Shown one piece after another: positions 1,102 through 26,925 of a stretch of DNA of 26,925 nucleotides. The position numbers and the translations under genes are program-made. Under the pieces are notes generated by a model. That model saw only the letters and a program-made list of their open reading frames with translations, did not search any database and was not told the origin of the DNA. Position 1 is the stretch's first letter, and each line of letters opens with the position of its first letter. The stretch is from a virus: the IMG/VR virus record IMGVR_UViG_3300030117_001114, positions 4,828-31,752 of that record, one strand, 5' to 3'.

Positions 1102-2124
1102 ATGTCAACTTATAGACAAGTAAAAGGTTATAGTATTAAAAAAGTAGAAAGTGATCCTTCTAACACTAAAGAAGGTCAAATTTGGTATAATGATATAACT
1201 AAACAACTTAAAGTTACACCCCTTGTTCAATCATGGTCTAGTGGTGGTAATTTAAATACAGGTAGAACTGGGCTAGCTGGGGCTGGATCTCAAACAGCAG
1301 CGTTAGCTTTTGGAGGAACAGTAGCAACACCAAGCACACCTCAAAACCCATATAAAAATGAATCTGAAGAATATAATGGCTCTTCTTGGACAGAAGGAAA
1401 TAATTTAAATCAAGCTAGATCAGGTATTGGTGGAGGAGGAACACAAACTGCAGCTTATGGTTTTGGAGGTTTACCTGGATCTGGTCAAAGTGCTACAGCT
1501 AATTCAGAAGAATATAATGGGACATCTTGGTCAGAAGGAAATAATTTAAATACTGCAAGTTATCAAGTGGTTGGAGGTGGACCTCAAACTGCTGGGATGG
1601 CTATTGGTGGAGCAACTTATACTACTCCACCATCAAGTTTTGCAGTTACTGATAGATTTGAATATTATGATGGTACATCGTGGAGTGAGCAAAATGATTT
1701 AAACACTGGAAGATATCTTTCTGCAGGTTGTGGACTTCAAACTGCAGCTTTATATGTTGGAGGAAATGATGGTACTGGTACAACTGCAATTGTAGAAGAA
1801 TGGAATGGAACTTCTTGGAGTGAAGTAAATAATTTACCAACAGCCACTCAACAACAAACTATGAGTGGAACTCAAACAGCTGCTTTAGGTGCAGCGGGAT
1901 CAGACGGCAGTGTTACTACCGCAGCTTTTTTTTACGATGGAACTAATTGGACAACTGCTCCTAGTGTAGCAACTGCAAGATCAGGTTTAGGTGCAGGAGA
2001 TATTGGAGCAACGCAAACATCTGGTATAATTTTTGGAGGACATATTACTCCTAACCCATCAGGTTATCAACAAACAGAAGAATTTTCAAGTTCAGTAACA
2101 ACAAAAACGGTAGATGTATCATGA
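1102..2124 (+). CDS. Kelch-like repeat tail protein, one set of six repeats
   Basis: 340 aa. An N-terminal segment of about 44 residues (motif EGQIWYN) is shared with the genes at 2121 and 4360 and is probably the virion-docking part. From Trp45 there are six repeats of about 45-55 aa, each of the form WSEGNNLNTAR, then GTQTAALAFGG, a variable loop, then EEYNGTS. The last repeat ends in TEEF followed by a short Thr/Val-rich tail. Six such repeats are consistent with one six-bladed beta-propeller of kelch or galactose-oxidase type. This is an inference from repeat number, since no structure was computed. Likely role: tail tip or fibre protein binding a surface glycan or receptor; the variable loops would form the binding face. 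The start follows AGGAGAATAG. The stop overlaps the next start as ATGA, indicating translational coupling. Confidence 0.8.
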   Translation: MSTYRQVKGYSIKKVESDPSNTKEGQIWYNDITKQLKVTPLVQSWSSGGNLNTGRTGLAGAGSQTAALAFGGTVATPSTPQNPYKNESEEYNGSSWTEGNNLNQARSGIGGGGTQTAAYGFGGLPGSGQSATANSEEYNGTSWSEGNNLNTASYQVVGGGPQTAGMAIGGATYTTPPSSFAVTDRFEYYDGTSWSEQNDLNTGRYLSAGCGLQTAALYVGGNDGTGTTAIVEEWNGTSWSEVNNLPTATQQQTMSGTQTAALGAAGSDGSVTTAAFFYDGTNWTTAPSVATARSGLGAGDIGATQTSGIIFGGHITPNPSGYQQTEEFSSSVTTKTVDVS

Positions 2125-3998
2125 CAGATTATAAAACTATACGTGGTAAAAAAATTAAAATTTTTTCAACCGATCTTGATAATGCTGAATCAGAAGGACA
2201 AATATTTTATAATAGCACAGATTTTAATTTTAAAACATCTATAGCTACTGCTGCATTTTCTGCAGGTGCTAATTTAATTACATCTAGATCAGATTTTAGA
2301 GGAACTTTTGGTACACAATCTGCTTTTAAAGGTGCTGGTGGTTTTACAACACTACCACCTGGTAATACACCTGCAATAACAAATGTTGAAGATTATGATG
2401 GCACAGGTTTTAGCACTGCTACTGCTTTACCATTAGCTACAAGAAATCAAGCTGGAGGAGGAACACAGACTGCTGGATGGATTGCTGGAGGAAGAAGATT
2501 TCCAACTTCGCCTGCAGATAGAACTGCCGAGACACAAGAATGGGATGGTTCAAGTTGGTCTGAAGGTGGTGATTTAGGATCAGCTAAATACGGTAATTCT
2601 GGTACAGGAACAGCAACTGCAGGTTTATCTTCTGGAGGATATAATACTGCAAACTTAAATGAAACTGAAGAATATAATGGAACTTCTTGGGCTGAACAAA
2701 ATAATTTAGGAACAGCAAGATATAGAACGGCAGCAGTAGGAACTCAAACAGCAACTATTTTATTTGGAGGGGGAGTATATCCTGGTTCACCTCAAGATGT
2801 AAATAATGTTGAAGAATATGATGGTACATCTTGGACAGCATTGACTAATTTACCTGCTGTTCGTGGTATGGGTTATTCTTTTGGAACTACAACAAATGCA
2901 ATTGTAACTGGAGGAAGAACAGGCTCTCCAGGTGCTTCAAACACATCTCTTTCTTGGAATGGATCAGCTTTTTCATCTGCTCCAAATCTTGGAACTGCAA
3001 GGTTTAATGGTGGTGATGGTCAAATTACAACAAAAGGTGCAGGTATAGTTGCTGGTGGATTTACACCACCTACTAATGCTATGTCAATCACAGAAGAATT
3101 TAACATAACAGCAGCTACAATTACAGCTGCAGCATGGTCTGGTGGTGGTAATTTAGGATCAAGTAGATATGAAATGGGGTCAGCTAATCAATCTCCTCAA
3201 ACAGCAGCGTTAGGTTTTGGAGGTTATGAACCAGGAGGTTCTCCTAAAAGATCTGCAAAAACAGAAGAGTATGATGGAAGTTCATGGACTGAATCTGGAG
3301 ATTTAAGCACTGGTAGAAATGGTTTAGGTGGAGCTGGTACACAAACTGCTGGTTTAGCGTTTGGTGGTTATGATGGCAGTAATCATCAAAATTCTACTGA
3401 AGAATATGGAGGTTCGTCTTGGACAGCAGGTGGAAATATGGTTGTTGGAAAATCAAGTAATTCTGGTTGTGGAACACAAACTGCAGGATTAAGTGCTGGA
3501 CAAAATAACGGAGATGGAATTAGTTCTAATATAGAAGAGTATAATGGAAGTTCTTGGTCAGAGGTAACTAATATGTCTAATGCAAGAAGAGACGCAACAG
3601 CTTTTGGAATTCAAACTGCAGCTGTTGTTGCTGGAGGAGAAATATCAGGAAATGCATATAGTGGTGTTGTAGAAGAATATGATGGTACATCTTGGACAAC
3701 TGGTGGGGCATTAATGATTGGTCACAGAAAACACGGTAGTGCAGGAACATCAACTTCAGGAATTGTTTTTGGAGGTCAAAATAGTGTTCCTAATAATAAT
3801 TCTGCAAAAACACAATTTTATGATGGAACTTCTTTTATAACATTTCCTAGTTTAGCAACTGGTAGACAAGGTATAGCTGGTTCTGGAACAAGTACAGCTG
3901 GTTTAGCTTTTGGAAAAAACCCACCCGGTAATGGATTAACAGAAGAATTTACAGGAGAAACAACAGCAATAAATTTAAAAACTATAACAGATAGTTGA
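2121..3998 (+). CDS. Kelch-like repeat tail protein, duplicated set (12 repeats)
   Basis: 625 aa, paralogue of the genes at 1102 and 4360. The N-terminus has the same docking segment (EGQIFYNSTDF). Twelve repeats follow, each starting with Trp or Phe and ending EEYDGTS-like. After the sixth there is an EEFNITAATITAAA linker that matches the C-terminal end seen in the single-set gene, and repeat seven begins at Trp339. The C-terminus is TEEFTGETT followed by an LKTITD tail. The layout is thus two propeller-sized halves, most simply from an internal duplication. Likely role as for the neighbour: receptor-binding or decoration protein of the tail. The start overlaps the upstream stop by four bases. 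A 40-base gap with a strong ribosome site for the 103-aa gene follows. The enzymatic activity of some kelch proteins is not indicated by any residue I can identify. Confidence 0.8.
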   Translation: MTDYKTIRGKKIKIFSTDLDNAESEGQIFYNSTDFNFKTSIATAAFSAGANLITSRSDFRGTFGTQSAFKGAGGFTTLPPGNTPAITNVEDYDGTGFSTATALPLATRNQAGGGTQTAGWIAGGRRFPTSPADRTAETQEWDGSSWSEGGDLGSAKYGNSGTGTATAGLSSGGYNTANLNETEEYNGTSWAEQNNLGTARYRTAAVGTQTATILFGGGVYPGSPQDVNNVEEYDGTSWTALTNLPAVRGMGYSFGTTTNAIVTGGRTGSPGASNTSLSWNGSAFSSAPNLGTARFNGGDGQITTKGAGIVAGGFTPPTNAMSITEEFNITAATITAAAWSGGGNLGSSRYEMGSANQSPQTAALGFGGYEPGGSPKRSAKTEEYDGSSWTESGDLSTGRNGLGGAGTQTAGLAFGGYDGSNHQNSTEEYGGSSWTAGGNMVVGKSSNSGCGTQTAGLSAGQNNGDGISSNIEEYNGSSWSEVTNMSNARRDATAFGIQTAAVVAGGEISGNAYSGVVEEYDGTSWTTGGALMIGHRKHGSAGTSTSGIVFGGQNSVPNNNSAKTQFYDGTSFITFPSLATGRQGIAGSGTSTAGLAFGKNPPGNGLTEEFTGETTAINLKTITDS

Positions 3999-4020
3999 TT
4001 TATGATAGTAATAAGTTATA

Positions 4021-4032
4021 AAAGGAAGGAGG
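4021..4032 (+). promoter_or_regulatory. Consensus Shine-Dalgarno site for the 103-aa gene
   Basis: AAAGGAAGGAGG ends six bases before the ATG at 4039. It contains the full AAGGAGG anti-16S complement, the strongest ribosome site I see in the window, where most genes rely on overlaps or weak AGGA-like sites. It fixes the start and suggests a high translation rate for a small protein between large tail genes. Confidence 0.75.
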
Positions 4033-4038
4033 ATTAAT

Positions 4039-4350
4039 ATGGCACTATTTATATACGGTACAGCGACTAACACAGGTAAAGGATTTTTTACTCATGATGA
4101 CAGAAGAAATTTTTCATTAAGAGGATACACTGGACATGATGGATCTAATTATGTTGATGTTTGGTGTGTTGGCAATAATGAAAAAGGAGCATACTGGTTG
4201 GCTGAAAAAAACGGAGTGGAAAAAACTAAAACAGAAGCACAAAATTTAGTTAACGCTGCTGTTACTTTAGCACAAAATGAATGGGATGGTTTATCTGATG
4301 AACAAAAAGCAAGAAGAGGACCTAGACCTACAGCTATAACAATCCCATAA
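4039..4350 (+). CDS. Small protein of unknown function between tail genes
   Basis: 103 aa, not recognised. The N-terminal half is rich in aromatic residues and Gly (FIYGTATNTGKGFFTHDD) and looks beta-rich. The middle has a VDVWCVGNN strand and an AYWLAEKNG segment. The C-terminal half is a predicted helix (KTEAQNLVNAAVTLAQNEWDGL) followed by a basic Arg/Pro tail. There is no signal peptide, membrane segment or known catalytic motif. It lies between two kelch-like genes behind a near-perfect ribosome site, and its stop codon overlaps the AAGGA site of the next gene. Position suggests an abundant small tail component, a fibre cap or an assembly helper. This is inference from context only. Confidence 0.7.
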   Translation: MALFIYGTATNTGKGFFTHDDRRNFSLRGYTGHDGSNYVDVWCVGNNEKGAYWLAEKNGVEKTKTEAQNLVNAAVTLAQNEWDGLSDEQKARRGPRPTAITIP

Positions 4351-4359
4351 GGAATTTTA

Positions 4360-6159
4360 ATGTCAACTTACCAAGAATTAAAAGGATTAAAGGTAAAATA
4401 TTTATCTTCTGATACTTCAGGAGATAGATTAAAAGAAGGTGAAGTTTTTTATAATTCTACAGATTTTAAACTTAAAGTTTTTGCATCCACTGCTGCTTGG
4501 CATAGTAGTTCAGCCTTAAACACTGGAAGATCTCGTATGTCAGGATGTGGAACAAATACAGCGAGTTTAGGTTTTGGAGGATATACACCTACTACAGGTA
4601 AAACAGAAGAGTACAATGGTTTTGGTTGGGCAGAAAGTGGTGATTTAAATACAGCAAGATATGTTATGGGCGGATGTGGAACACAAACAGCAGGTTTAGG
4701 ATTTGCTGGATATGACGCATCAAATGTTAAAAATGAATCTGAAGAATATAATGGTACTGCTTGGACTGAAGGAAATAATGTAAACACATCAAGACAAATG
4801 TTAGGATCAGCAGGTACACAAACTGCTGGTTTAGGTTTTGGTGGTTTAGTTCCCCCAAATACTAATAAAAATGAAACAGAAGAGTATGATGGTACTTCGT
4901 GGTCAGAACAAAATAATTTAAATACTACAAGACGTATTTTAGCTGGAGCAGGAACTCAAACTGCAGGATTAGCTTTTGGAGGATTTGTATCTGCAAATTC
5001 AGCTTCAACTGAAGAATATGATGGTACTAGTTGGTCAGCAAGTAATGATATGGGAACAGCAAGATATTCATTAGCTGGTTCAGGAATTCAAACATCAGCA
5101 TTAGCTTTTGGAGGAAACGCTAACAGAACTGAATTTTACAATGGTACTAGTTGGTCAGAAATGGGAGATTTAGCTACAAGTAGAGCTTATATAGCAGGAT
5201 GTGGAGCTACTGCACCTGCAACAGTTGCCTTTGGTGGTAATCCTAATAGAAATAACACAGAAGAATTTACAATATCACTATCAGCTACAACTGCAGCATC
5301 TTGGGCTAGTGGTGGAAACATGTCTACAGCAAGAGTTGGACTGGGTGGATTTGGAACTCAAACTGCAGGAGCAGGAGCTGGGGGATATACCTATCCAGGT
5401 TTTACTAGGGAAACAGAAGAATATAATGGAACTAGTTGGTCAGATGGTGGAGACTTGGCTCACACTGATAATAAATATGGATTAATGGGAGCTGGTACAC
5501 AAACTGCAGGTTTAGCTTTTGGAGGTGGTGCAGGAACTACTGTTTATGGACAGACAGATGAATATGATGGTTCCTCTTGGACAGCTAGTAATGCTATGAA
5601 TACAGAAAAAATATTTGGATCTGGTGGTGGAACTCAAACTGCAGGATTGTCAGCTGGAGGTGAAGGACCTAGTGCTGGAAATAATACATCAGATACCGAA
5701 GAATATAATGGCACATCTTGGTCAGAACAAAATAATATGTCAACAGCTAGAAGAGGATGTGGAGTTTCATATAACTCACAAACTGCAGCTCTTGTTGTTG
5801 GAGGTTTTACTAGTACAAGAGTTACTAGTACAGAAGAATATGATGGAACTAATTGGACAGCTGGTGGAGCTTATCCTACTGCTCTTAATGCCATAGCTGG
5901 ATTTGGCACATCTTCTGATTTTATTGCTTTTGCTGGTTCAGCACCATCATCTCAATCATTAGTAAGTAGTTATGATGGAACTGCTTTTGCATCAGCACCT
6001 TCTCTTCCTACTGCTAATAATGACATGGATTCTTCTTCGGCATCTCCTGCTGCAAGCGCAATTGGTTTTGGTGGTAATGATCCATCTAGAGCTAATACAT
6101 ATGAATTTACAGGGGAAACAACTGCAGCAAGAGCGGTTAAAACAGTTGACTTTGATTAA
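4360..6159 (+). CDS. Kelch-like repeat tail protein, duplicated set (12 repeats)
   Basis: 599 aa, closest in plan to the gene at 2121. The N-terminal docking segment (EGEVFYNSTDFKLK) is followed by twelve repeats with conserved cores such as GTQTAGLGFGG, EEYDGTSWSEQNN and DLNTAR. The sixth repeat ends in EEFTISLSATTAAS and the seventh starts at Trp315, so the protein again divides into two sets of six. The C-terminus is YEFTGETTAARAVKTVDFD, close to the ends of its two paralogues. Likely role: receptor-binding or decorating tail protein. The AAGGA site overlaps the upstream stop with six bases to the ATG. The third member of a tandem family implies repeated duplication with loop diversification, as expected for host-range proteins. 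The stop codon sits inside a 12-bp palindrome described separately. Confidence 0.8.
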   Translation: MSTYQELKGLKVKYLSSDTSGDRLKEGEVFYNSTDFKLKVFASTAAWHSSSALNTGRSRMSGCGTNTASLGFGGYTPTTGKTEEYNGFGWAESGDLNTARYVMGGCGTQTAGLGFAGYDASNVKNESEEYNGTAWTEGNNVNTSRQMLGSAGTQTAGLGFGGLVPPNTNKNETEEYDGTSWSEQNNLNTTRRILAGAGTQTAGLAFGGFVSANSASTEEYDGTSWSASNDMGTARYSLAGSGIQTSALAFGGNANRTEFYNGTSWSEMGDLATSRAYIAGCGATAPATVAFGGNPNRNNTEEFTISLSATTAASWASGGNMSTARVGLGGFGTQTAGAGAGGYTYPGFTRETEEYNGTSWSDGGDLAHTDNKYGLMGAGTQTAGLAFGGGAGTTVYGQTDEYDGSSWTASNAMNTEKIFGSGGGTQTAGLSAGGEGPSAGNNTSDTEEYNGTSWSEQNNMSTARRGCGVSYNSQTAALVVGGFTSTRVTSTEEYDGTNWTAGGAYPTALNAIAGFGTSSDFIAFAGSAPSSQSLVSSYDGTAFASAPSLPTANNDMDSSSASPAASAIGFGGNDPSRANTYEFTGETTAARAVKTVDFD

Positions 6160-6197: not shown

Positions 6198-6884
6198 ATG
6201 ACTAAAGAGAAAAGAAATATAAAAGAGCTTATTGAAAAAGAAGCTCCTAATCTTAATAACATATTAGAGCCAGAAGATGTTTCTGTATTTAAAGAAATGA
6301 CAGAAGAGCTTCGAGATACTTGGACTAAAAAACAAATGTTTAGAACAGAAACAGAAATGTCTTTTTCTGTATTAAACGATGCAAAGTATCCAACTAAAGC
6401 TGCTAAATATTGGCAGTGCGTTAGAGAACAAAATGTTTTTTTAGAAAATTTAATGTCATTATCTTTTGATTATAGAAGAACTGAAGTTAAAATAAAAAGA
6501 TTACAAGAAAAATTAGATAAAGAAGAAGATCCATTAAAAAGAGAATTACTACAAATTGATATAGATGAAAAAGTATACGGTAAAGCATCTATGCAATTGG
6601 TTGCAAGAGATAGAATGAGAGAAATTAAATTGTGGTCTAAATTTAAAAAGAAATTTGACGACGGTTCTTTTGATACTAAAGATGTCAATACACACCAATT
6701 ACATTCTTATCATTTAACAATGAAAAATAAGGCAGAAACATTAACATCTGGTTCAAGTCAACCAGAAGTATTTAATGTATTGGGTCAATTACAATCTATT
6801 GAACGAATAAAGAAAGAAAATGGACAACTGGAATACGATAAAAAAGACAAGCTTACACACGAACTTGGAGCAAAACCCAAGTAA
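6198..6884 (+). CDS. Charged helical phage protein of unknown function
   Basis: 228 aa, not assigned to a family with confidence; it resembles hypothetical proteins found near tail genes in marine phages. Lys plus Glu content is very high. Residues about 90-125 (RRTEVKIKRLQEKLDKEEDP) are predicted coiled coil, followed by more amphipathic helix with WSKFKKKFDDGSF. There is no signal, membrane segment or catalytic motif. The start follows AAAGGA with eight bases of spacing. Its last 65 bases overlap the next gene if that gene begins at 6820. It is the first gene after the candidate promoter at 6146. A structural or assembly role is possible but unproven. Confidence 0.7.
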   Translation: MTKEKRNIKELIEKEAPNLNNILEPEDVSVFKEMTEELRDTWTKKQMFRTETEMSFSVLNDAKYPTKAAKYWQCVREQNVFLENLMSLSFDYRRTEVKIKRLQEKLDKEEDPLKRELLQIDIDEKVYGKASMQLVARDRMREIKLWSKFKKKFDDGSFDTKDVNTHQLHSYHLTMKNKAETLTSGSSQPEVFNVLGQLQSIERIKKENGQLEYDKKDKLTHELGAKPK

Positions 6885-7653
6885 AAAACTTTTCTTTTTA
6901 GTTGCAATGCCAAGATCAGGTAACACTTTGTTTGCATCTATTATGAATCAAAATCCTAGTGTGGCAGCTACAGCAAATTCTATTACATTAGAAATTATAA
7001 AAGATTTATTTTTACTTAAAAAAACAGATGTGTTTTTAAATTTTCAAGACCACAAATCTTTAGATAATGTTTTAGATTCTGTGTTTGATACCTATTATAA
7101 AGATTGGCCGCAGCGTATAATTATTGACCGTGGACCTGTAACAGCAATAGGTAATTTTCACTTAATGCAAAAACATTATAAACGTCCCTTTAAGTGTATT
7201 GTGTTATTAAGAGATTTAATGGATGTGTTAGCTAGTTACATGCAATGGTACACAGAAAACCCTAGTGCTTTTATTAATAGATACAACCTTAAAAATGATG
7301 AAGAAAAATTATCTATGATAATGAATACAAAAGGTGCAGTTGCTAAAGAATTAGAAGCAATTAAAAATTCGTATAATTATCCTGGTTTGTGTCATTATGT
7401 AAAGTATGATGACATAGTTACTAATCCTGAACAAGAATTTAAAAAAATATATAAATTTTTAGATGAACCTTACTATAATCATAGATTTAACAATCTTGAT
7501 CAAGTGTCTGTAAATGGTTTGTCTTACGATGACACAGTAGTTGGTAGTAACATGCATAAACTATTTGATGGACCTGTTAGAAAAGTATATAACCCTTACA
7601 TAGAAAAAATTCCAGAAAGGATTAGACACAAATATGAACACATCAGATTTTAA
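6820..7653 (+). CDS. P-loop sulfotransferase family protein
   Basis: 277 aa with this start. It should transfer sulfate from PAPS to a hydroxyl or amine of an unknown acceptor. The 5'-phosphosulfate loop is at residues 24-36 (LFFLVAMPRSGNT), directly after the first beta strand. The 3'-phosphate site is LLRDLMDVLASY, with Arg131 and Ser139 in the usual R-x7-S spacing. A YDDIVTNPEQEFKKIYKFL segment near residue 190 matches the family's C-terminal helix region. The length suits a single catalytic domain without transmembrane anchor, so it would act in the cytoplasm. The start is uncertain: ATG 6820 overlaps the upstream gene by 65 bases, TTG 6865 overlaps by 20, and ATG 6907 would remove the first strand and is unlikely. 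Phage sulfotransferases are known in marine phages, but their substrates are not. Confidence 0.85.
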   Translation: MDNWNTIKKTSLHTNLEQNPSKKLFFLVAMPRSGNTLFASIMNQNPSVAATANSITLEIIKDLFLLKKTDVFLNFQDHKSLDNVLDSVFDTYYKDWPQRIIIDRGPVTAIGNFHLMQKHYKRPFKCIVLLRDLMDVLASYMQWYTENPSAFINRYNLKNDEEKLSMIMNTKGAVAKELEAIKNSYNYPGLCHYVKYDDIVTNPEQEFKKIYKFLDEPYYNHRFNNLDQVSVNGLSYDDTVVGSNMHKLFDGPVRKVYNPYIEKIPERIRHKYEHIRF

Positions 7654-8290
7654 ATTTGTATTTTTAGGACAATCTGTTTTACGGTATCAAGTGCCATTAG
7701 ATGTTTATAATATTATAAATGATATATACGAAAAACGTAGAGATGAATTGTATCCTGCAAACAAACAATTAGTTGGAAAAATAAAAAATGAACATTCTTT
7801 ATTTTTTGACGGAGAACCTAACAATATAATGAAACCACACAGACATTTACCTGATAATGTTATGCAATGGTTTTGGCAAAAATTTAAACATTATTTAAAT
7901 TGGAATAAAATAGATGGATATGAAATGCATTTAAATTCTATTTGGATTAACGAAATGAAAGAACATGAATATAATCCAATACACGTTCACCAAGGCACCT
8001 TGTTTACAGGTTTATCTAGTGTAATGATTTTAAAATTACCACAACAAACAGGCATAGAATATTCAGCAGAAGATAAACCTATGAATGGTAGGTTACAAAT
8101 ATTAGGTAATTCATCTGGACATTTTTGTAAAACAGATTATTCACCAAATACTAAAGAAAGAGATTTTTATGTATTTCCATATGATATGAAACACGCAGTA
8201 TATCCTTTTAATGGTCAAGGATTTAGAAGAACTTTATCTTGTAACTGTGATGTAAATTATGACCCAATAAAAAATAGAAGTGCATTATGA
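7634..8290 (+). CDS. Putative 2OG-Fe(II) oxygenase (HxH variant)
   Basis: 218 aa. The fold signature matches the phage 2OG-Fe(II) oxygenase group related to the gene at 8865. The segment NSIWINEMKEHEYNPIHVH corresponds to the WANINPPGG..HIH region there. Probable metal ligands are His117, His119 and distal His187 (FPYDMKHAVYP), with Arg198/Arg199 to bind 2-oxoglutarate. The usual Asp of the HxD pair is absent. The expected chemistry is oxidation of a substrate coupled to 2-oxoglutarate decarboxylation; the substrate is unknown. The start overlaps the sulfotransferase gene by 20 bases and the stop overlaps the next start by four, so it is in a tight operon. Family assignment is moderately sure; activity is not. 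Confidence 0.65.
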   Translation: MNTSDFKFVFLGQSVLRYQVPLDVYNIINDIYEKRRDELYPANKQLVGKIKNEHSLFFDGEPNNIMKPHRHLPDNVMQWFWQKFKHYLNWNKIDGYEMHLNSIWINEMKEHEYNPIHVHQGTLFTGLSSVMILKLPQQTGIEYSAEDKPMNGRLQILGNSSGHFCKTDYSPNTKERDFYVFPYDMKHAVYPFNGQGFRRTLSCNCDVNYDPIKNRSAL

Positions 8291-8868
8291 TAATAACAGA
8301 ACCTAAATGGAAAAGTTGGATAGTAGAAACTACTACACCTATATTTACACCAGATCAATGTAAACAAATTATTGAGTGTGGAAGAAGACAACCTCCTCAA
8401 CAAGCAAAGGTAGGTATGGGTAAACCTGAAGGTGGAACAGATACAAAAAAACGATTGACTACTATTAGTTGGATTCCTTTTAAAGAAATGGATCACATGT
8501 ATCAAGATCTTAATAAATTTATACAAAGATGTAATGAAAATCATTTTGGTTTTGGTGATATACAAATAACAGAAAATGCACAGTTTACAGAATATCCTCA
8601 AGGAGGGTTCTACGACTGGCATATGGATTGTGATGTAAACATGCAACACGAACCACCGGTTAGAAAAATATCTATGACATTACTGTTAAATGATCCTTCA
8701 GAATTTGAAGGTGGTGATTTAGAACTTATGGGACCAGGTAAATTTGCAAAACTTAAACAAGGTCATGCAATTATATTTGCATCGTTTTTAAACCACAGAG
8801 TTAATATTGTTACACGTGGAGTTAGACAATCTTTAGTTGTTTGGTTTGGAGGTAAACCTTTCAGATGA
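8287..8868 (+). CDS. 2OG-Fe(II) oxygenase, prolyl-4-hydroxylase/PiuC-like
   Basis: 193 aa with a complete set of catalytic residues. His112 and Asp114 are in FYDWHMDCD, the distal ligand His170 is in ASFLNHRVN, and Arg180 (GVRQSLVVWF) lies ten residues later for the 2-oxoglutarate carboxylate. The core ISMTLLLNDPSEFEGGDLEL followed by GHAIIF is the classical double-stranded beta-helix sequence of this superfamily. Length suits a stand-alone catalytic domain. Related phage genes are annotated as prolyl hydroxylase-like, and candidate substrates include protein side chains, nucleobases or small molecules. It overlaps its neighbours by four bases on each side, so all are probably translated together. 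This is the most clearly functional oxygenase of the four. Confidence 0.85.
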   Translation: MIITEPKWKSWIVETTTPIFTPDQCKQIIECGRRQPPQQAKVGMGKPEGGTDTKKRLTTISWIPFKEMDHMYQDLNKFIQRCNENHFGFGDIQITENAQFTEYPQGGFYDWHMDCDVNMQHEPPVRKISMTLLLNDPSEFEGGDLELMGPGKFAKLKQGHAIIFASFLNHRVNIVTRGVRQSLVVWFGGKPFR

Positions 8869-9446
8869 TAATAGAAAAATATTTTCCAACTATTATATAC
8901 GGTAAAGATGTGCAATTAAATAATAATCAATTAGCACAAGACATTGTTAATTGGTCTAATCAAGATAAAGGTGTTTCTAAAACAAATGTTAAAGGTTGGC
9001 ATTCAACAACAGACATGGGTAAAAAACCTGAATATCAAGAGTTGGTTACAGAGTTAATGAGAATGCAAAAAGAAATATATGATAACGAACATTTAGATAG
9101 ATACGCAAGATTAGGTAATATGTGGGCTAATATAAATCCACCAGGTGGTATGAACATGCCACACATACATCCTAATGCTTTATTTTCTGGAGTGTATTAT
9201 GTAAAATCACAACCTAATTGTGGTAGACTTAAAATTATAGATTCAAGGCCAGGCGTGCAATACAATATGCCTATGAGAAAACCTGGTGATCCTGGTAAAG
9301 ATTTGTGGAGAGATATAAATATAGAACCTGTTACTGGTAGAATTGTTATGTTTCCTGCATGGTTGTGGCACGGTGTTGAAGAAAATAAATCTAATGATAT
9401 AAGAATATCGGTAAGTTTTAATTTTATACAAGATGGCTTTCAATAA
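8865..9446 (+). CDS. Putative 2OG-Fe(II) oxygenase (2OG-FeII_Oxy_5 type)
   Basis: 193 aa. The opening IIEKYFPTIIY and the core WANINPPGGMNMPHIHP, then LFSGVYYV, are typical of the 2OG-FeII_Oxy_5 family, common in marine phages and bacteria. Probable ligands are His100, His102 and His169 (FPAWLWHGV), with Arg180 in DIRISVSFNF for 2-oxoglutarate. As in the gene at 7634, a His stands where HxD families have Asp. A long loop (residues about 127-152) separates the strands. No export signal is visible. ATGA overlaps link it to the upstream gene, and it overlaps the next gene by 14 bases. The substrate is unknown; context links it to virion or cell-envelope modification only by proximity. Confidence 0.75.
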   Translation: MIIEKYFPTIIYGKDVQLNNNQLAQDIVNWSNQDKGVSKTNVKGWHSTTDMGKKPEYQELVTELMRMQKEIYDNEHLDRYARLGNMWANINPPGGMNMPHIHPNALFSGVYYVKSQPNCGRLKIIDSRPGVQYNMPMRKPGDPGKDLWRDINIEPVTGRIVMFPAWLWHGVEENKSNDIRISVSFNFIQDGFQ

Positions 9447-17749: not shown

Positions 17750-20700
17750 TGGCTTCAAACACTCCGTTTAAATCTAAACAGGATACAGAATACAGCATTG
17801 ATAAAGACACTGTTAATGCAATTATTAAAAAAAGATTTAATACAAAAAAGAAACCTAAAAAATTTACATGGAAAGGTTTATTTGATGCTACAGCTATTTT
17901 AGAAACTAATCCATTTAGTCCTAGAAAATTAGAAAGAATAAAACAATTAATGGAAGGCAGTGAAGCTAATGAAAAAGATTACATAGATACATTTGAAGAT
18001 TTAGAAAAAGGGTTTTACTCTGGTGTACAAAAATTAGGTTATGCTATTGGTGATCTTGCAACAGCAGGTATAGATTTAACTGTAGGTAGAATAGGAGATA
18101 CTAATCTTAATGAAAAACTTACAGAAGTTTATGAAGAAAATAAATTAAAAGAACCCGAAGCTTTAACAGGTAAATTAGTTGAAGTATTAACACAATACGG
18201 TGTGCCAGGTAGTGCTGCATTTAAAATTACAAATAGATTAAGAAAATTATCTTTAGCTAAAAAAGCAAAAGCTGCAAGTGCTGCAGCAATAGGCACAACT
18301 GCTACTAATATAGCATCAAAGTCTGGTGTTATGGCAACTGCATTTGGTATTACAGATTTTTTAGCAACAGAACCTGGTAGAGGAAACATAGTTTTAAAAG
18401 AAGAAGATACAGAAGGGTTGTCAGGCACAGATTTAGCAGCAGCTAGATTTAAAAATAGATTAAGATTTGGTGCAGAAGGTGCAACTATTGGTGCTGGTTT
18501 TAGTTTGTTAGGTAAGCCTGCATCTATTGGATTAAAGTATGGTTTGTTTAAACCACTTGGTCTTGGTATGAAAGGGGTTGGTAAAGTTGTAGGTGGAGCT
18601 TCGTGGTTGTTATCTAAAGACCCTGTTGTTATACCAACGATTGCAAAAAAATTACAGCAAGGAACAGCGTATAGTTTAGAAAAAATTATATCTCCTGTGC
18701 TTGTAGGTAAAGCACCATTTAAAACACAATTACCTGACTTTGAAAAATGGAGAATGTTTTCTGTAAATTCTAACGATCCGTTAAAGGCAAGATTAAAAAA
18801 ATTTGACAACGTTTTATCTTGGTTTAGATCTGTAGGTAAAAATACTAATCAACAGTTTACACTATCATCAAGAGCAGCAAGAGAAATAAAAGCACGATCT
18901 AGAACTATAGAAAAATATTTAGAGTCTATTGAAAAAAAAGCTTATGATTTAGCAAAAGGAAACAGAGATTTATATAATACAAAAACTGTATCACCATCTA
19001 GTCAACAACATTATTTAGATCAAACATTAGATTATTTAAAAGGTAAAATAAGATTAAACCAATTACCAGATACTTTGCAAGAAAGTGCAAAAAATTTAAA
19101 TAAAGAAATGATACAGATTAAAAAGAAATTTGGTCAACTATTACCAGAAAGTGAATTAAAAAATTATTTATTACAAAATGTAAGCACATACATGCGTAAA
19201 TCTTTTTCTATATTTACAGATCCAACATTTAAACCTGATAAAAAAGTGTTTGATGGTGCTGTAGATTTTATGTCAAATCTTATTAAGAACAATAGAGATT
19301 TAAGAAGAGCTGCTTTAGACGAACCAGCACATGCAGGTTTTAAACCAGAAGCTAAAATTAAAAAATTTGGAGAATCCCTTGTACAAAAAATATTGTATGA
19401 AGGTAAACACAATAATGGAGATCCATTAGAATTTTTAAAAAGAGTGGCTAAACAAAATTTAAGATTAAAAGATGTTGTACGAACAGGTGATGAGTTACCG
19501 GACGCTATTAAAAAATTATTAGGTGAAGAGAATAATTTAAAAGCAGCAGTAATGACTACAACTTCACATGCAATTACACAGGCAACTAATAAAAAATTAT
19601 TTGATCGTGTTGCTGCACTAGGTATTAAAGAGGGTTGGTTGTTTAAAGATGAAGCAAGAGCAAATGCAAGAGGTATATTAGATGCAGAAAAAATTAAACA
19701 CGTACCTGGTCTAGGATTTTTAGGATCAAGATTAGATAAATTATTTGGGTCAAGACAAGTTGCAGAAGCAATGAGAGGCACACCTGGTAAGTTAGATGGT
19801 GCCATTCAAAATGCTGCATACAGAGGAATACTACAAATAAAAGTTGCTACACAGTTTGGTAAAACTGTATTATCTCCAGCTACACAAGTTCGTAACGTTA
19901 CATCGGCAAGTTTATTTCCGCTAGCAAATGGCCACATAGGTGGAGGCGCATCTGTTACTGAAGCATTTAGAATGACATTAGATGATATATTTGGTGCAGG
20001 AAAAGTTTTAGATGAAAAAGTATTAATTGATAAAATAGAAGATAAAATTAGAAGAGGAGTGTTAGATGAAAACATTGTAGCATCAGAGCTTGGTGCCGTT
20101 CTTAAAGACATTAAAAAAGGATCTATAAATTCAATAGATGGTTTGTACAATAAATTAACAAACGGTAAATTTATGAAAGGTGCAACACGTGTTTATGCAG
20201 GTGGTGATAATCTTTGGAAATGGTTCGGTGATGAGTATGTGCAATCACAAATGAAAAATACATATAAAGATTTAAATGCAATAAAAAAATGGTTTCCTGA
20301 AGTGCAAGGACAAGAATATATTGCAAGAGATCTGTTTACTAACAAATTAAAAACATACGACGATGCAATAAAAGAAGCTGCAGCTTGGTATATTAGAAAT
20401 ACATACCCAACATACAGTAAAGTTCCAGAAGTAATTAAAGCAATTAGAAAACTACCATTTGGTAACTTCGTATCGTTTCCTGCAGAAATGATGAGAACAA
20501 GTTTTAATATTATGAATATTGGTATGAAAGAAATTGGATCTAGTAATGCTGCATTAAGACAAGTAGGTTATAGAAGAATGATAGGGGCTTACACTGTATT
20601 AGGTGGAGCTTCAACAGCAGCTCTTAACATAGCATCAGAAGTTTCAGGTGTTAGTTTAGATGAATTAGATGCATATAAAGAGTCTTTCGCAGCAGAATGG

Positions 20701-22591: not shown

Positions 22592-24022
22592 CTAAATCCA
22601 TGATTTAAGTTCTTCACCTAACACTTCAGAGGCTATATTTATTTTTTTTCTTAACGCTTTAACAATTTTTTCATCAACAGTATCTTCAGCATTTATATCT
22701 ACATATGTTACAGGTTTTTTCTGTCCCATACGGTGTGCTCTGTCTTCTGATTGTAATCGTTTTTCTAGGTCATAACCATTAGAATAGTAAATTACAGTGT
22801 TTGCAGCTGTCAAAGTAATGCCATAGCCGCCCGTAGAAGGCGTTCCAATAAAAAATCGACACTTGGGGTCGTCTTGAAAACGTTTAATATTGTTTTGTCT
22901 TTCTTCTTTTGGTGTTAATCCATAATAATCAACAAAAGATTTTGGACCATATTCATTATTTATAGCCTCTATAATTTTATTAATATCATATTGATAATGT
23001 GCCCAAATAATAGCTTTACCCTCTACATCTTCAAGCACAGTCATTAATTCATTTATTCTATTATTTTGTATTGATTGAGTTACACCACTGTCATCAGTAA
23101 AATGACCACAAGTTATTTGTTGTAAACGCATTAATTGAGTTAATGAATTTTTTGTACTAGATACTTTTCCTTGTAATATTGCTAATGCTTGTTCTTTCAT
23201 TTGAGCGTACAATTTAAATTGATCTGGTGTTAATTGTATTTGACGTTTAATAAATATTTTATCTGGTAAATCTAAACAATCTTCTTTTAATACACGATAA
23301 GAAAAAGTTTTAATTGTTTCTGATAACTCACCAAGATTTTTAAATTTATCTACAACTTGTATTGATCTGCCATGCGCATGCATAGTTTTCATTTCTGCGT
23401 ATCTATTTCTAAATGCATAATAAGAACTAAAATCTAATAAATAAGGATCAAGAAACTCACATTGACTATACAAATCTAATGGATTTTTAGTAACAGGTGA
23501 ACCTGTCATAATACGTCTGTATTTAGCTTCTTTAGATAAAGTTACAATATTTTTAGTCCGTTTAGCACCTGGATTTTTTATTGTAGTAGATTCATCAATA
23601 GCCATCATTGCATTATGTGATCGCAAAAATTTACCTGCAAAAAGTCTACCCTTATCTGTACTAAAAGCTTCAACATTCATAATTAAAATATGTAAAGCTG
23701 TTTCTACCTCAAACAATGTTTCTAATTTTTCTTGTTGTTTTTTATTTATATTTGGTTGCCATAATACAGTCACATTTTCTATATGGTTTGGTAAATGTGT
23801 TGGTAACTCATTACTATACCAAGTTCCTACAACACCTTTAGGTGCAACAATTAAAGCACCATCTATTTTTCCTTTATCATAAAGCATAGACATATTGTCT
23901 ATTAATACTTTTGTTTTACCCGTACCCATTTCCATAAAATAAGCGTAAGTTTCTTTGTTCCACGATTTTTCCAATGCAGTTATTTGATGTGCATATGGCT
24001 TTGTTTTAAATTTATAATTCAT
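22592..24022 (-). CDS. SNF2-type superfamily 2 helicase/ATPase
   Basis: 476 aa from the chosen ATG, giving MNYKFKTKPYAHQITALEKS. The Walker A motif EMGTGKT is at 31-37, the Walker B AIDEST at 141-146, motif III MTGSP at 172-176, and motif VI QSEDRAHRMGQ at 424-434 with the LTAANTVIYY strand just before. These are hallmarks of SNF2 helicases, ATP-driven duplex DNA translocases used by phages in replication, recombination or remodelling. The frame can be extended to a GTG at 24061, but that lies inside the promoter palindrome. The ATG at 24022 follows a purine-rich AGAAAGAAG site. It is the only minus-strand gene, convergent with lysis and divergent from the replication genes. No nuclease domain is attached. 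Confidence 0.88.
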   Translation of the reverse strand: MNYKFKTKPYAHQITALEKSWNKETYAYFMEMGTGKTKVLIDNMSMLYDKGKIDGALIVAPKGVVGTWYSNELPTHLPNHIENVTVLWQPNINKKQQEKLETLFEVETALHILIMNVEAFSTDKGRLFAGKFLRSHNAMMAIDESTTIKNPGAKRTKNIVTLSKEAKYRRIMTGSPVTKNPLDLYSQCEFLDPYLLDFSSYYAFRNRYAEMKTMHAHGRSIQVVDKFKNLGELSETIKTFSYRVLKEDCLDLPDKIFIKRQIQLTPDQFKLYAQMKEQALAILQGKVSSTKNSLTQLMRLQQITCGHFTDDSGVTQSIQNNRINELMTVLEDVEGKAIIWAHYQYDINKIIEAINNEYGPKSFVDYYGLTPKEERQNNIKRFQDDPKCRFFIGTPSTGGYGITLTAANTVIYYSNGYDLEKRLQSEDRAHRMGQKKPVTYVDINAEDTVDEKIVKALRKKINIASEVLGEELKSWI

Positions 24023-24039: not shown

Positions 24040-24073
24040 TTGACAATATAATCAAGAACACTTATATTGTCAA
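24040..24073. promoter_or_regulatory. Symmetric bidirectional promoter / operator palindrome
   Basis: TTGACAATATAA (24040-24051) and its exact reverse complement TTATATTGTCAA (24062-24073) flank a 10-base centre. Rightward promoter: TTGACA at 24040-24045, 17 bases, TATATT at 24063-24068. Leftward promoter, read on the minus strand: TTGACA at 24073-24068, 17 bases, TATATT at 24050-24045. Each arm thus carries the -35 of one promoter and the -10 of the other. The site lies between the divergent helicase and 24076 genes. It could also bind a dimeric repressor. The sequence pattern is exact; promoter function is inferred. Confidence 0.75.
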
Positions 24074-24075
24074 GC

Positions 24076-24435
24076 ATGAAAGAAAATAAAGTTTATGTGA
24101 TCCAAGAAGTTGCTGGAACTAAATCAGGTTCTCCTAAAATAAACATTATGGGTGCTGCTAAATATGGTAAGTTTGAATTTTTACTTCCAGAGTTTTCGCA
24201 AATAATATTTTCTCCTGGACCTTTAATTTTTAAATTAAGAAAAGGATTAAAAAATTTTACAACAGAAGATTATTTATTATTAACTGGTGATCCTGCTATT
24301 ATAGGTGTTGCATGTTCTATAGTTTCTGACATGACAAATGGTAAATACAATTTACTTAAATGGGATAAACAAGAAAGAGCTTATTATCCTATTGAAATTA
24401 ACTTATACGAGAAAGGAGAAATTGATGACAATTGA
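24076..24435 (+). CDS. Conserved phage protein of unknown function (early module)
   Basis: 119 aa starting at ATG 24076 (MKENKVYVIQEVAGTKSGSP). A TTG three codons upstream is also in frame but lies within the -10 box of the promoter. Compact alpha/beta protein with FEFLLPEFSQIIFSPGPL, KLRKGLKNFTTEDYLLL and GDPAIIGVACSIVSDMTNG segments. It resembles a family of hypothetical proteins in cyanophage and pelagiphage replication regions, with no known function. There is no membrane segment; the AIIGVACSIV stretch is probably buried. It is first in the rightward operon, and its stop overlaps the next gene by 11 bases, suggesting coupling. Confidence 0.75.
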   Translation: MKENKVYVIQEVAGTKSGSPKINIMGAAKYGKFEFLLPEFSQIIFSPGPLIFKLRKGLKNFTTEDYLLLTGDPAIIGVACSIVSDMTNGKYNLLKWDKQERAYYPIEINLYEKGEIDDN

Positions 24436-24976
24436 TTTTGAAAAAGACCAAGAAAATGTTTTGCAAAAAACAACAAACATACAGTCACTTGCAGATCAAG
24501 TAGAAAAGTTAGAGGCTTTACAAAAAAGACTTGAGTTACAAGAAGACAATATGAAAAATACAAAAAAAGAATTAGAATATTTATCTGGAGAAGTAATTCC
24601 AACCATGATGTCAGAGATGGGTTTATCACATCTTAAACTTATGGATGGTTCTTCAGTAGATGTAAAACCAAATTATAGCGCTAGTATCTCTGTTGCAAAT
24701 AGAGAAGCAGCGTTTGCATGGCTTCGTAACAATGGACTAGGAGATATAATCAAAAATGAGATATCCGTATCTTTTGGTCGTAACGAGGATAACAAGGCGG
24801 CTGATTATGCCAACCTTGCAGAGAGTCAGGGTTATCAACCTCAACAAAAATTGAAAGTTGAACCTATGACTCTCAAAGCGTTAGTCCGTGAACGTTTAGA
24901 GGCAGGAAAAGAAATGCCAACGGAAATTTTCAACGTGTTCGTTGGAAATAAAACAACAATAAAAAGGAAACAATAA
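24425..24976 (+). CDS. Conserved phage replication-region protein
   Basis: 183 aa. The start is set by AGGAG at 24414-24418, six bases before ATG 24425; an upstream in-frame ATG at 24338 would lie deep inside the previous gene. The first 60 residues are coiled coil (LADQVEKLEALQKRLELQED). The rest is a globular domain with LSHLKLMDGSSVDVKPNYSA, then FAWLRNNGLGDIIKN, EISVSFGRNED and VEPMTLKALVRERLEAGKEM. Related hypothetical proteins occur beside primase, helicase or ssDNA-binding genes in diverse phages, but no biochemical role is known to me. A 2-base gap precedes the next gene. A DNA-metabolism role is inferred from context. Confidence 0.7.
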   Translation: MTIDFEKDQENVLQKTTNIQSLADQVEKLEALQKRLELQEDNMKNTKKELEYLSGEVIPTMMSEMGLSHLKLMDGSSVDVKPNYSASISVANREAAFAWLRNNGLGDIIKNEISVSFGRNEDNKAADYANLAESQGYQPQQKLKVEPMTLKALVRERLEAGKEMPTEIFNVFVGNKTTIKRKQ

Positions 24977-24978
24977 AC

Positions 24979-25728
24979 ATGAACCAAGTAGCAGAAAAAA
25001 AAGAAGGAGCATTAGCTGTCAATATGTTTGAAGCTGATGCAAATCAAGGTGCTCAAAATATATCGCAAGAAGATCTTGCGTTACCTTTTTTAAAAATTTT
25101 GGGTCAACTATCTCCAGAAGTAAACGAAAGAGATGGTAAATATGTCGAGGGCGCAAAGCCTGGCAAGATAATTAACACAGTTACAAACGAATTGTTTGAT
25201 GAAATTTGTGTTGTGCCTTGTCATTATAAAAGACAATACATTGAATGGCAAGACAGAGGTACCAGTGGTGGTGCACCTGTTGCAATTCATGATGCAGGTA
25301 GTGATATCGTTAGTCAAACGACTAGAGATAAATCTTATAAAGATAGATTACCAAACGGTAATTATCTTGAAAATACTGCTAATCATTTTGTATTAGTTGT
25401 TAATGATACTCCGTCAACAGCTTTAATTTCTATGAAATCTACTCAACTTAAAGTTAGTAGAAAATGGAATTCATTGATGATGGGTATTAAATTACAAGGT
25501 AAAAATGGTTTGTTTACACCACCAACTTATAGCCACATTTATAATCTATCAACTGTGCAAATGTCTAATGACAAAGGAACATGGTTTGGATGGGAAGTTG
25601 AAAAGATGGGGCCAGTTAAAGATAAAGCAATGTATGAAATGGCTAAATCTTTTGCACAAAGCGTCGGTCAAGATGAAGTGCAGGTTAAACACGATTCAGG
25701 AAATACCAAAGACTCAACACCATACTAA
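24979..25728 (+). CDS. Conserved phage protein, possible ssDNA-binding role
   Basis: 249 aa. Recognisable conserved parts are LALPFLKILGQLSPEV (about 33-48), EGAKPGKIINTVTNELFD (about 57-74), VVPCHYKRQYIEW and VLVVNDTPSTALISMKSTQL (about 138-158). These belong to a widespread group of phage proteins in replication and recombination regions. They are often annotated as hypothetical, and some have been suggested to bind single-stranded DNA. Predicted as mostly beta with an acidic-polar disordered C-terminal tail (SGNTKDSTPY), a feature common in phage ssDNA-binding proteins. AAGGAAA lies upstream of the ATG. Function remains inferred. Confidence 0.65.
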   Translation: MNQVAEKKEGALAVNMFEADANQGAQNISQEDLALPFLKILGQLSPEVNERDGKYVEGAKPGKIINTVTNELFDEICVVPCHYKRQYIEWQDRGTSGGAPVAIHDAGSDIVSQTTRDKSYKDRLPNGNYLENTANHFVLVVNDTPSTALISMKSTQLKVSRKWNSLMMGIKLQGKNGLFTPPTYSHIYNLSTVQMSNDKGTWFGWEVEKMGPVKDKAMYEMAKSFAQSVGQDEVQVKHDSGNTKDSTPY

Positions 25729-25744
25729 TAGAATCCTAGGAGAT

Positions 25745-25772
25745 GGGCGCTGAAGCGAGAGTGGAGGCGCCC
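25745..25772 (+). promoter_or_regulatory. GC-rich RNA hairpin upstream of the primase gene
   Basis: GGGCGC at 25745-25750 pairs with GCGCCC at 25767-25772 around a 16-base purine-rich loop that contains GTGGA. GTTTAAAA follows, so it could be a weak intrinsic terminator or attenuator between the gene ending at 25728 and the primase. Its GC content stands out from the surroundings. The palindrome TCCTAGGA (25734-25741) lies just before it. A regulatory RNA leader for the primase is equally possible. Confidence 0.5.
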
Positions 25773-25783
25773 GTTTAAAAATT

Positions 25784-26925
25784 ATGTTTGAAAAAATATT
25801 TAAGGGATTGGAGCGTGCGCATGGTTGTACCAAAGTTACAACACCAGCAGAAAATGGTGTCAAACTAAAAGGACAATCATTCGTAGTACGTCAACCAGTG
25901 ACCACGGAACTGTGGAAGATGCACCTAGATGGCACGCAGAGTTTGGGCATCATACCTATTAACGAGGATAACCAATGTGTGTGGGGATGTGTTGACATAG
26001 ATTCATACGCAGGTTTTGATCACAAAAAATTAATAGATAAAATAAAACAATTTAAATTACCTTTGGCTGTGTGTAGGTCAAAGAGTGGAGGGGCACACGT
26101 CTTTCTGTTTACAGATCAACCCGTATCTGCAGAAAGAATGAGAGACAAATTAACAGAAATAAAAACATTATTAGGATACGGCGGATCAGAAGTTTTTCCA
26201 AAACAAATTCAATTAAAATCAGCAGACGACACAGGTAATTTTTTAAATTTACCATATTTTAGAGGCGATGACACAACACGTTATGCATTTAAAGCAGATG
26301 GTTCAGCTGCCTCATTGAGAGAATTTTATGAAATTTATGAAGAAATAAAACAAACAGATATTACAAAAATAAAAATAGAAAGACCACAGTCAGAATACTC
26401 TGATGCACCACCATGTATAGAACTTATGGCTATGAATAAAATACCAGAGGGTGGCAGAAACAATTCTATGTTTCACTTTGGTGTGTATGCAAAAAAGAAA
26501 TGGCCAGCAGAATGGAAAAGTAAAATGACATTGTTTAATGCAACAGCATCAACAACACCATTGAGTGAGTCTGAAGTAGAAATAATTAAACGACAACATG
26601 ATAAAAAAGAATGGGGATACAAATGTAATGATACACCTATGTGTAATCTGTGTGATAAAAAATTATGTAGAGAGAGAAAGTTTGGTATAGGTGAAGAGAT
26701 AGTATTTCCTGCACTAACTGACTTACAAAAAATTAAATTAGAAAAACCATACTACTATCTTAATGTAGATGGTGAAAGACTACACTTGGAGAATGTAAAA
26801 TTTTTAAAACAACAAAGTTTATTCCAAGAAGCATGTATGGAACAGTTAGATTTTAAACCACCAACAGTAAAACCTAAAGACTGGGACATGATAATAAACC
26901 CATTGATGAAGAACCACGAACCAAT
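25784..26925 (+). CDS. Archaeo-eukaryotic-type primase, 3' end outside window
   Basis: 380 codons are visible and the frame is open at the window end. Hallmarks of the archaeo-eukaryotic primase (AEP) superfamily are present: the metal-binding DxD, Asp71 and Asp73 in WGCVDIDSY, and SKSGGAHVFLF at 99-109 with His105, the nucleotide-binding motif. GGSEVFPKQ at 133-141 is typical of the TOTE/phage subgroup. A C-terminal helical part (IPEGGRNNSMFHFGVYAKK, about 220-238) is followed by a Cys cluster, C281, C287, C290 and C295, that may bind zinc or an iron-sulfur cluster. The missing 3' part might carry a helicase domain, as in many phage primase-helicases. The ATG follows TAAAAATT with no clear Shine-Dalgarno. 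Expected to prime phage DNA replication. Confidence 0.85.
   Translation, partial: MFEKIFKGLERAHGCTKVTTPAENGVKLKGQSFVVRQPVTTELWKMHLDGTQSLGIIPINEDNQCVWGCVDIDSYAGFDHKKLIDKIKQFKLPLAVCRSKSGGAHVFLFTDQPVSAERMRDKLTEIKTLLGYGGSEVFPKQIQLKSADDTGNFLNLPYFRGDDTTRYAFKADGSAASLREFYEIYEEIKQTDITKIKIERPQSEYSDAPPCIELMAMNKIPEGGRNNSMFHFGVYAKKKWPAEWKSKMTLFNATASTTPLSESEVEIIKRQHDKKEWGYKCNDTPMCNLCDKKLCRERKFGIGEEIVFPALTDLQKIKLEKPYYYLNVDGERLHLENVKFLKQQSLFQEACMEQLDFKPPTVKPKDWDMIINPLMKNHEP

Follow-up and report, generated by a model that had tools for sequence, protein, structure and literature searches.

The window (the whole stretch of DNA analysed, 26.9 kb out of a 31.7-kb IMG/VR record) is from an uncultivated HTVC023P-type (pelagiphage-like) phage. 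Among named phages it is closest to Pelagibacter phage HTVC027P and phage 023Pt_psg01, with ~70% DNA identity over the helicase, and its gene order agrees with that of HTVC027P. Towards the right of the window an SNF2-family helicase gene diverges from an operon headed by a Pam3_gp32-like gene (Table 1); a sequence-only reading had set a putative promoter pair between a minus-strand helicase and a rightward replication operon, a placement that the Pfam-identified flanking genes bear out. Elsewhere, positions 1102-6159 encode long proteins with repeated TQTAALAFGG-type motifs, kelch-like but below the Pfam cutoff, which are likely tandem tail or receptor-binding proteins, and three successive 2OG-Fe(II) oxygenase-like genes (7634-9446) follow a sulfotransferase-like gene (6820-7653).

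Table 1. Genes and predicted control features at the divergent junction, in window coordinates
Feature	Position	Strand	Basis
SNF2-family helicase, start ATG at 24022	22592..24022	-	Pfam SNF2-rel_dom 3.4e-23 and Helicase_C; start conserved in relatives
Predicted leftward start, 15-nt leader AGAAAGAAGAAAACT before helicase ATG	24037	-	Spacing rule; purine-rich leader in relatives
Putative interlocked divergent promoter element, 34 bp	24040..24073	.	Sequence, promoter scan, arms kept in relatives
Rightward promoter -35, TTGACA	24040..24045	+	Sequence, scan; invariant in 34/34 distinct class-A elements
Leftward promoter -10, TATATT	24045..24050	-	Sequence, scan; TANNTT in class-A relatives; base pair 24045 common to plus -35
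Rightward promoter -10, TATATT, 17-bp spacer	24063..24068	+	Sequence, scan; TATATT in 34/34 distinct class-A elements
Leftward promoter -35, TTGACA	24068..24073	-	Sequence, scan, class-A comparison; base pair 24068 common to plus -10
Predicted rightward start, at the A of the ATG (leaderless mRNA)	24076	+	7-8 nt past -10; element-to-ATG distance in relatives
Pam3_gp32-like, heads rightward operon	24076..24435	+	Pfam PF23992 3.4e-32
Remaining rightward operon in window: Pam3 gp33-like, gp34-like, TOTE-type AEP primase	24338..26923	+	Pfam

A 34-bp element with interlocked boxes

At exactly 24040-24073 the window reads TTGACAATATAATCAAGAACACTTATATTGTCAA, which consists of two 12-bp arms around a 10-base loop, the second arm being the exact reverse complement of the first, TTGACAATATAA. 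This confirms the earlier description of TTGACA, 17 bases and TATATT on both strands with arms that are exact reverse complements. In a promoter scan the plus and minus promoters each matched the consensus at 11 of 12 positions with 17-bp spacing, giving a sigma70-type pair whose -35 and -10 boxes lie 16-18 bp apart on both strands of the same DNA. Each promoter's -35 abuts the other's -10 with one base pair in common (24045, 24068), and one -35 and one -10 cover almost the whole of each arm, only the twelfth base lying outside both. Genes begin close by on both sides, at distances of 17 nt for the helicase ATG and 2 nt for the plus-strand ATG. Since the plus gene starts eight bases past its -10, its mRNA would be leaderless if transcription begins at the usual distance; the predicted plus and minus starts are ~39 bp apart.

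First-order Markov sequence with the window's composition and dinucleotides is expected to hold 0.12 pairs of 12-bp arms with a 3-30 loop per window, and 0.027 interlocked near-consensus pairs (both boxes at least 5/6, spacing 16-18, overlap at least 20 bp). Across the 31.7-kb record, exact TTGACA-N16-18-TATAWT has two matches, both of which belong to this element. Compared with shuffles, loose promoter-like sites showed no excess in the element's region, so the argument against chance stands on the interlocked near-consensus pair and on the relatives.

Conservation at the helicase junction

Both promoters are conserved in relatives at this junction. Among 117 distinct upstream regions anchored on the helicase, chosen without regard to the element, 114 carry paired outward -35 boxes (counted at at least 5/6) that are 33, 34 or 37 bp apart (n = 45, 31 and 38, respectively; length taken arm to arm with nothing between). 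The three exceptions are a contig that ends inside the element (L073), an element ~150 bp further up behind an insert (L419) and a split variant (L036). A later set, the third and partly overlapping the first two, keeps the paired boxes in 70 of 72 cases. HTVC027P and HTVC023P, two cultured phages whose helicases are 62% and 45% identical, respectively, do not carry the element.

In class A, the window's own subgroup, the plus -10 is TATATT in all 34 distinct elements, whereas the minus -10 varies (TATATT 14, TATCTT 14, TATGTT 2 and four single variants), which points to stronger constraint on the plus direction. All of these minus boxes fit TANNTT, which breaks the palindrome at two positions (3 and 4) yet keeps -10 positions 1, 2, 5 and 6. 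Outside class A the final position of the -10 varies freely (TATATG, TATATA, TATATC), and TATATG stands at both -10 boxes of the 33-bp B class. E. coli sigma70 prefers T at this last position. The Sinorhizobium -10 has been reported as poorly conserved (PMC3616915), and the non-T bases would be tolerable only if the SAR11 -10 is similarly loose; they fit an E. coli-like sigma70 poorly. The distance from element to plus-strand ATG is 2-3 nt in 63 of the 76 elements of the 33- and 34-bp classes, and a purine-rich leader before the helicase ATG is visible in relatives. Some classes conserve the spacer as well, which hints at a possible further binding site.

A free-gap scan (TTGACA-N8-38-TATATTGTCAA) was run in viral contigs and in bacterial genomes. 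The viral scan returned 120 stretches, and among the matches listed most had gap 17, followed by gap 16, with the others scattered near background; the pooled viral spectrum includes a scan fixed at gap 17, which inflates its height there, and the free-gap scan alone still peaks. In the bacterial scan 14 of 121 had gap 17, and there were smaller peaks at 20 and 23. Optimal spacing to a second -35 thus shows strong enrichment in these phages, whereas any enrichment in bacteria is modest at most. The gap-17 peak among the bacterial loci (L533 onward) means that similar interlocked pairs may exist in bacteria.

The same design at a second junction

A pattern scan of viral contigs yielded a second family of loci, with the element between the small terminase gene (identified by Pfam Terminase_2) and a divergent gene, for example in L454-L532 upstream of terS and at G002:C1:14683-14715. 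The ATG of the divergent gene is mostly 1-5 nt from the element, as is the terminase ATG in most loci, and both mRNAs are therefore predicted to be leaderless. The 34-bp form is present in 61 of 69 distinct terminase-anchored regions; six of the eight regions without it carry the element further up behind an insert and one is cut by the search window. The spacer AAGGTAA is conserved here, and many -10 boxes read TATAAA, lacking the last-position T. Seven of the eight clade records >50 kb contain both elements (G002, G021, G022, G023, G024, G025, G027), the two loci being assigned by gene in G002 and G001 and by sequence likeness and spacing in G021-G027; G022 has one further match. The eighth record, G001, has a terminase element that remains interlocked, together with the split form at the helicase junction.

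More interlocked elements lie at other divergent gene pairs (L114:1573-1606, L106:1134-1167, L138:389-422, L144:6192-6225), and these four have the sequence ATCCCA within their spacers in common. When L106, L177 and L114 were compared with the named phages, L106 and L177 had no match; the minus gene of L114 matches the HTVC027P protein at 18252-18428, gp35 by position, suggesting a possible third node.

A split variant keeps one promoter per direction

In the 63.6-kb genome G001 (G001:C1:46035-46117; L036-L038, equal to L651-L653) the element is replaced by two tandem degenerate copies, which read, past the helicase start and in window orientation, TTAAGAATATAGGGAGAAAATCTATTTTTGTCAA and then TTGACAATAAAATAATCAACACTATATTGCTAA. 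In the first copy the plus boxes have been lost and TTGACA-17-TATATT remains on the minus strand; in the second it is the minus boxes that have gone, and TTGACA-16-TATATT remains on the plus strand. They are the only two TTGACA-N16-18-TATAWT sites in this genome. A locus with 97% helicase identity to the split lineage (L654, on the contig of L032) retains a single interlocked element, and the simplest reading is that a bidirectional promoter was first duplicated, after which the copies underwent complementary loss; the result has the look of such a promoter divided into two one-way promoters. The variant shows that the palindrome and the exclusion can be lost with both promoters retained, and this lineage is the strongest support for a promoter in each direction.

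Promoters, operator or other functions

Judged from its conservation, the element is a real control element, and we consider it probable (about 0.8) that it is a compact divergent promoter pair for host sigma70 RNA polymerase, built from interlocked -35 and -10 boxes. The unlikely alternative that survives best is that the palindrome serves chiefly as an operator, at which a dimeric phage regulator would repress or switch both directions, with the promoters built around it, as with BirA at bioO, where the geometry is identical. The arms are perfectly symmetric in the window, both sides of the B class show symmetry, genome G002 has the ATGTCAA arm at both loci, and the classes differ in both arms together, with a pooled arm symmetry of 0.69 against 0.52 when shuffled. 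Shared descent of the classes can, however, produce this pooled excess, and within each class tested (A34, A33, B33, C37 and terminase) symmetry equalled that of shuffled arm pairings: classes differ symmetrically, yet there is no covariation inside them. The sequence-only reading had proposed aligning relatives for compensatory arm changes; both -35 boxes proved to be kept (114/117) but the arms did not covary within classes, and its suggestion that a dimeric regulator could use the palindrome is not supported. Class A also departs from symmetry at positions 3-4 of the minus -10, arm position 6 at the terminase locus is nearly free (A/T 12, A/A 9, T/A 5, T/T 4), G017 combines B and A arms, and the split variant drops the symmetry whilst retaining both promoters. 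The annotation of HTVC027P and 023Pt_psg01, in the stretches listed, names no regulator. The lack of within-class covariation favours promoters over a symmetric operator; such a regulator is not needed, although the operator question is kept alive by the symmetry of the B class and by the AAGGTAA spacer at the terminase locus.

It is very improbable that the repeat serves as an RNA hairpin, be it a terminator, an attenuator or a processing site, within a transcript crossing the junction: the repeat folds as RNA at -10.4 kcal/mol (z -3.3), but it lies upstream of both predicted starts, has no T-run, reaches only sub-threshold matches in Rfam with no family at cutoff, and in many class-A relatives has a stem-breaking mismatch that leaves the boxes intact. 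We give equally little credence to a role in replication initiation (an origin) or in packaging at the boundary of the replication module. The repeat does lie at the start of the replication operon, and both published records, of HTVC027P and of HTVC023P, have their ends at this junction; record ends may, however, be convention, the same design recurs at a second locus of the same genomes, and the constraint tracks promoter boxes and spacing. Chance, for all that TATATT is common in AT-rich sequence, is a negligible explanation in view of the 0.027 pairs expected per window and is refuted by the more than 100 relatives that keep the element at the same gene junction, so that the earlier remark that such spacing on both strands is hard to explain by chance holds.

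Proposed mode of action

In the annotation of the first 50 kb each of HTVC027P and 023Pt_psg01, no polymerase, sigma factor or transcription-factor gene is named. In a comparison with HTVC027P, RNA polymerase and MarR genes are called HTVC022P-specific (PMC12753301), and taken together these observations make the host polymerase the expected user of the element. An early or middle expression class for HTVC027P gp01 and gp87 is not given in the main text. Polymerase would bind the promoter pair in one of two orientations, the two directions competing for the same DNA; rightward starts would yield a leaderless mRNA of the replication operon and leftward starts a helicase mRNA with a short purine-rich leader. 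Occupation by one polymerase at a time, and hence mutual exclusion, is likely on steric grounds, as at other bidirectional promoters (PMC12825309), and the near-consensus boxes make competition between directions likely here.

The relative strength of the -10 boxes, not a bistable toggle, would share out expression. Polymerase competition on its own, with no feedback, does not produce two stable states. The toggle or balanced switch first proposed is therefore not supported, as it needs feedback and none was found; in class A, over half of the distinct elements depart from TATATT at the minus -10 whilst the plus -10 is invariant, and one lineage has become un-interlocked. More speculatively, and possible rather than probable, phages of the HTVC023P-type clade may control their genomes through two orientation-exclusive nodes, one at helicase/replication and one at small terminase/next operon. 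These would be almost the only host promoters near consensus in the genome, would split host polymerase between the arms by competition alone, with no repressor, and would feed leaderless mRNAs. With three spacing classes, a varied minus -10 and one split copy, the element forms a natural series for testing the effects of competition on divergent expression.

Comparison with known systems

The helicase/gp01 junction of HTVC027P has the same divergent gene pair, and a leftward TTGACT-17-TATATA is readable there by eye, but it is without the interlocked TTGACA/TGTCAA pair. The overlapping divergent promoters of pLS20 (PMC4207663) likewise form an overlapping pair at a control point of a mobile element; the pLS20 switch is described as involving DNA looping and regulation, of which nothing is shown for the phage element. 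The bidirectional promoters described by Warman, Grainger and colleagues share or overlap their -10 boxes, with starts 7-25 bp apart (PMC10268837); simultaneous binding of polymerases is sterically impossible at them, and competition was negligible at basal activity and appeared once one direction was strengthened (PMC12825309). Near-symmetric DNA in which one polymerase site is used in two orientations is common to both systems. The phage element is nevertheless not a bidirectional promoter in that sense, as its -10 boxes (24045-24050 and 24063-24068) are separate, 12 bp apart and each abut the opposite -35, and the starts are predicted so much further apart.

The closest likeness is to E. 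coli bioO, where the sequence between bioA and bioB, which we checked, contains a 34-bp inverted repeat, TTGTAAACC...GGTTTACAA, with a -35-like TTGTAA, 17 bp and a -10-like hexamer on each strand. We take these hexamers to be the bioA and bioBFCD promoters, and bioO is the operator of the BirA repressor. Both systems have divergent genes, a 34-bp repeat and boxes interlocked in the identical manner, an inverted repeat overlapping interlocked divergent promoters. They differ in that the bioO boxes are weaker and serve with a BirA operator, whereas the phage boxes are near consensus and their symmetry is not selected within classes. Given the same 34-bp geometry, the phage arrangement varies an already known design.
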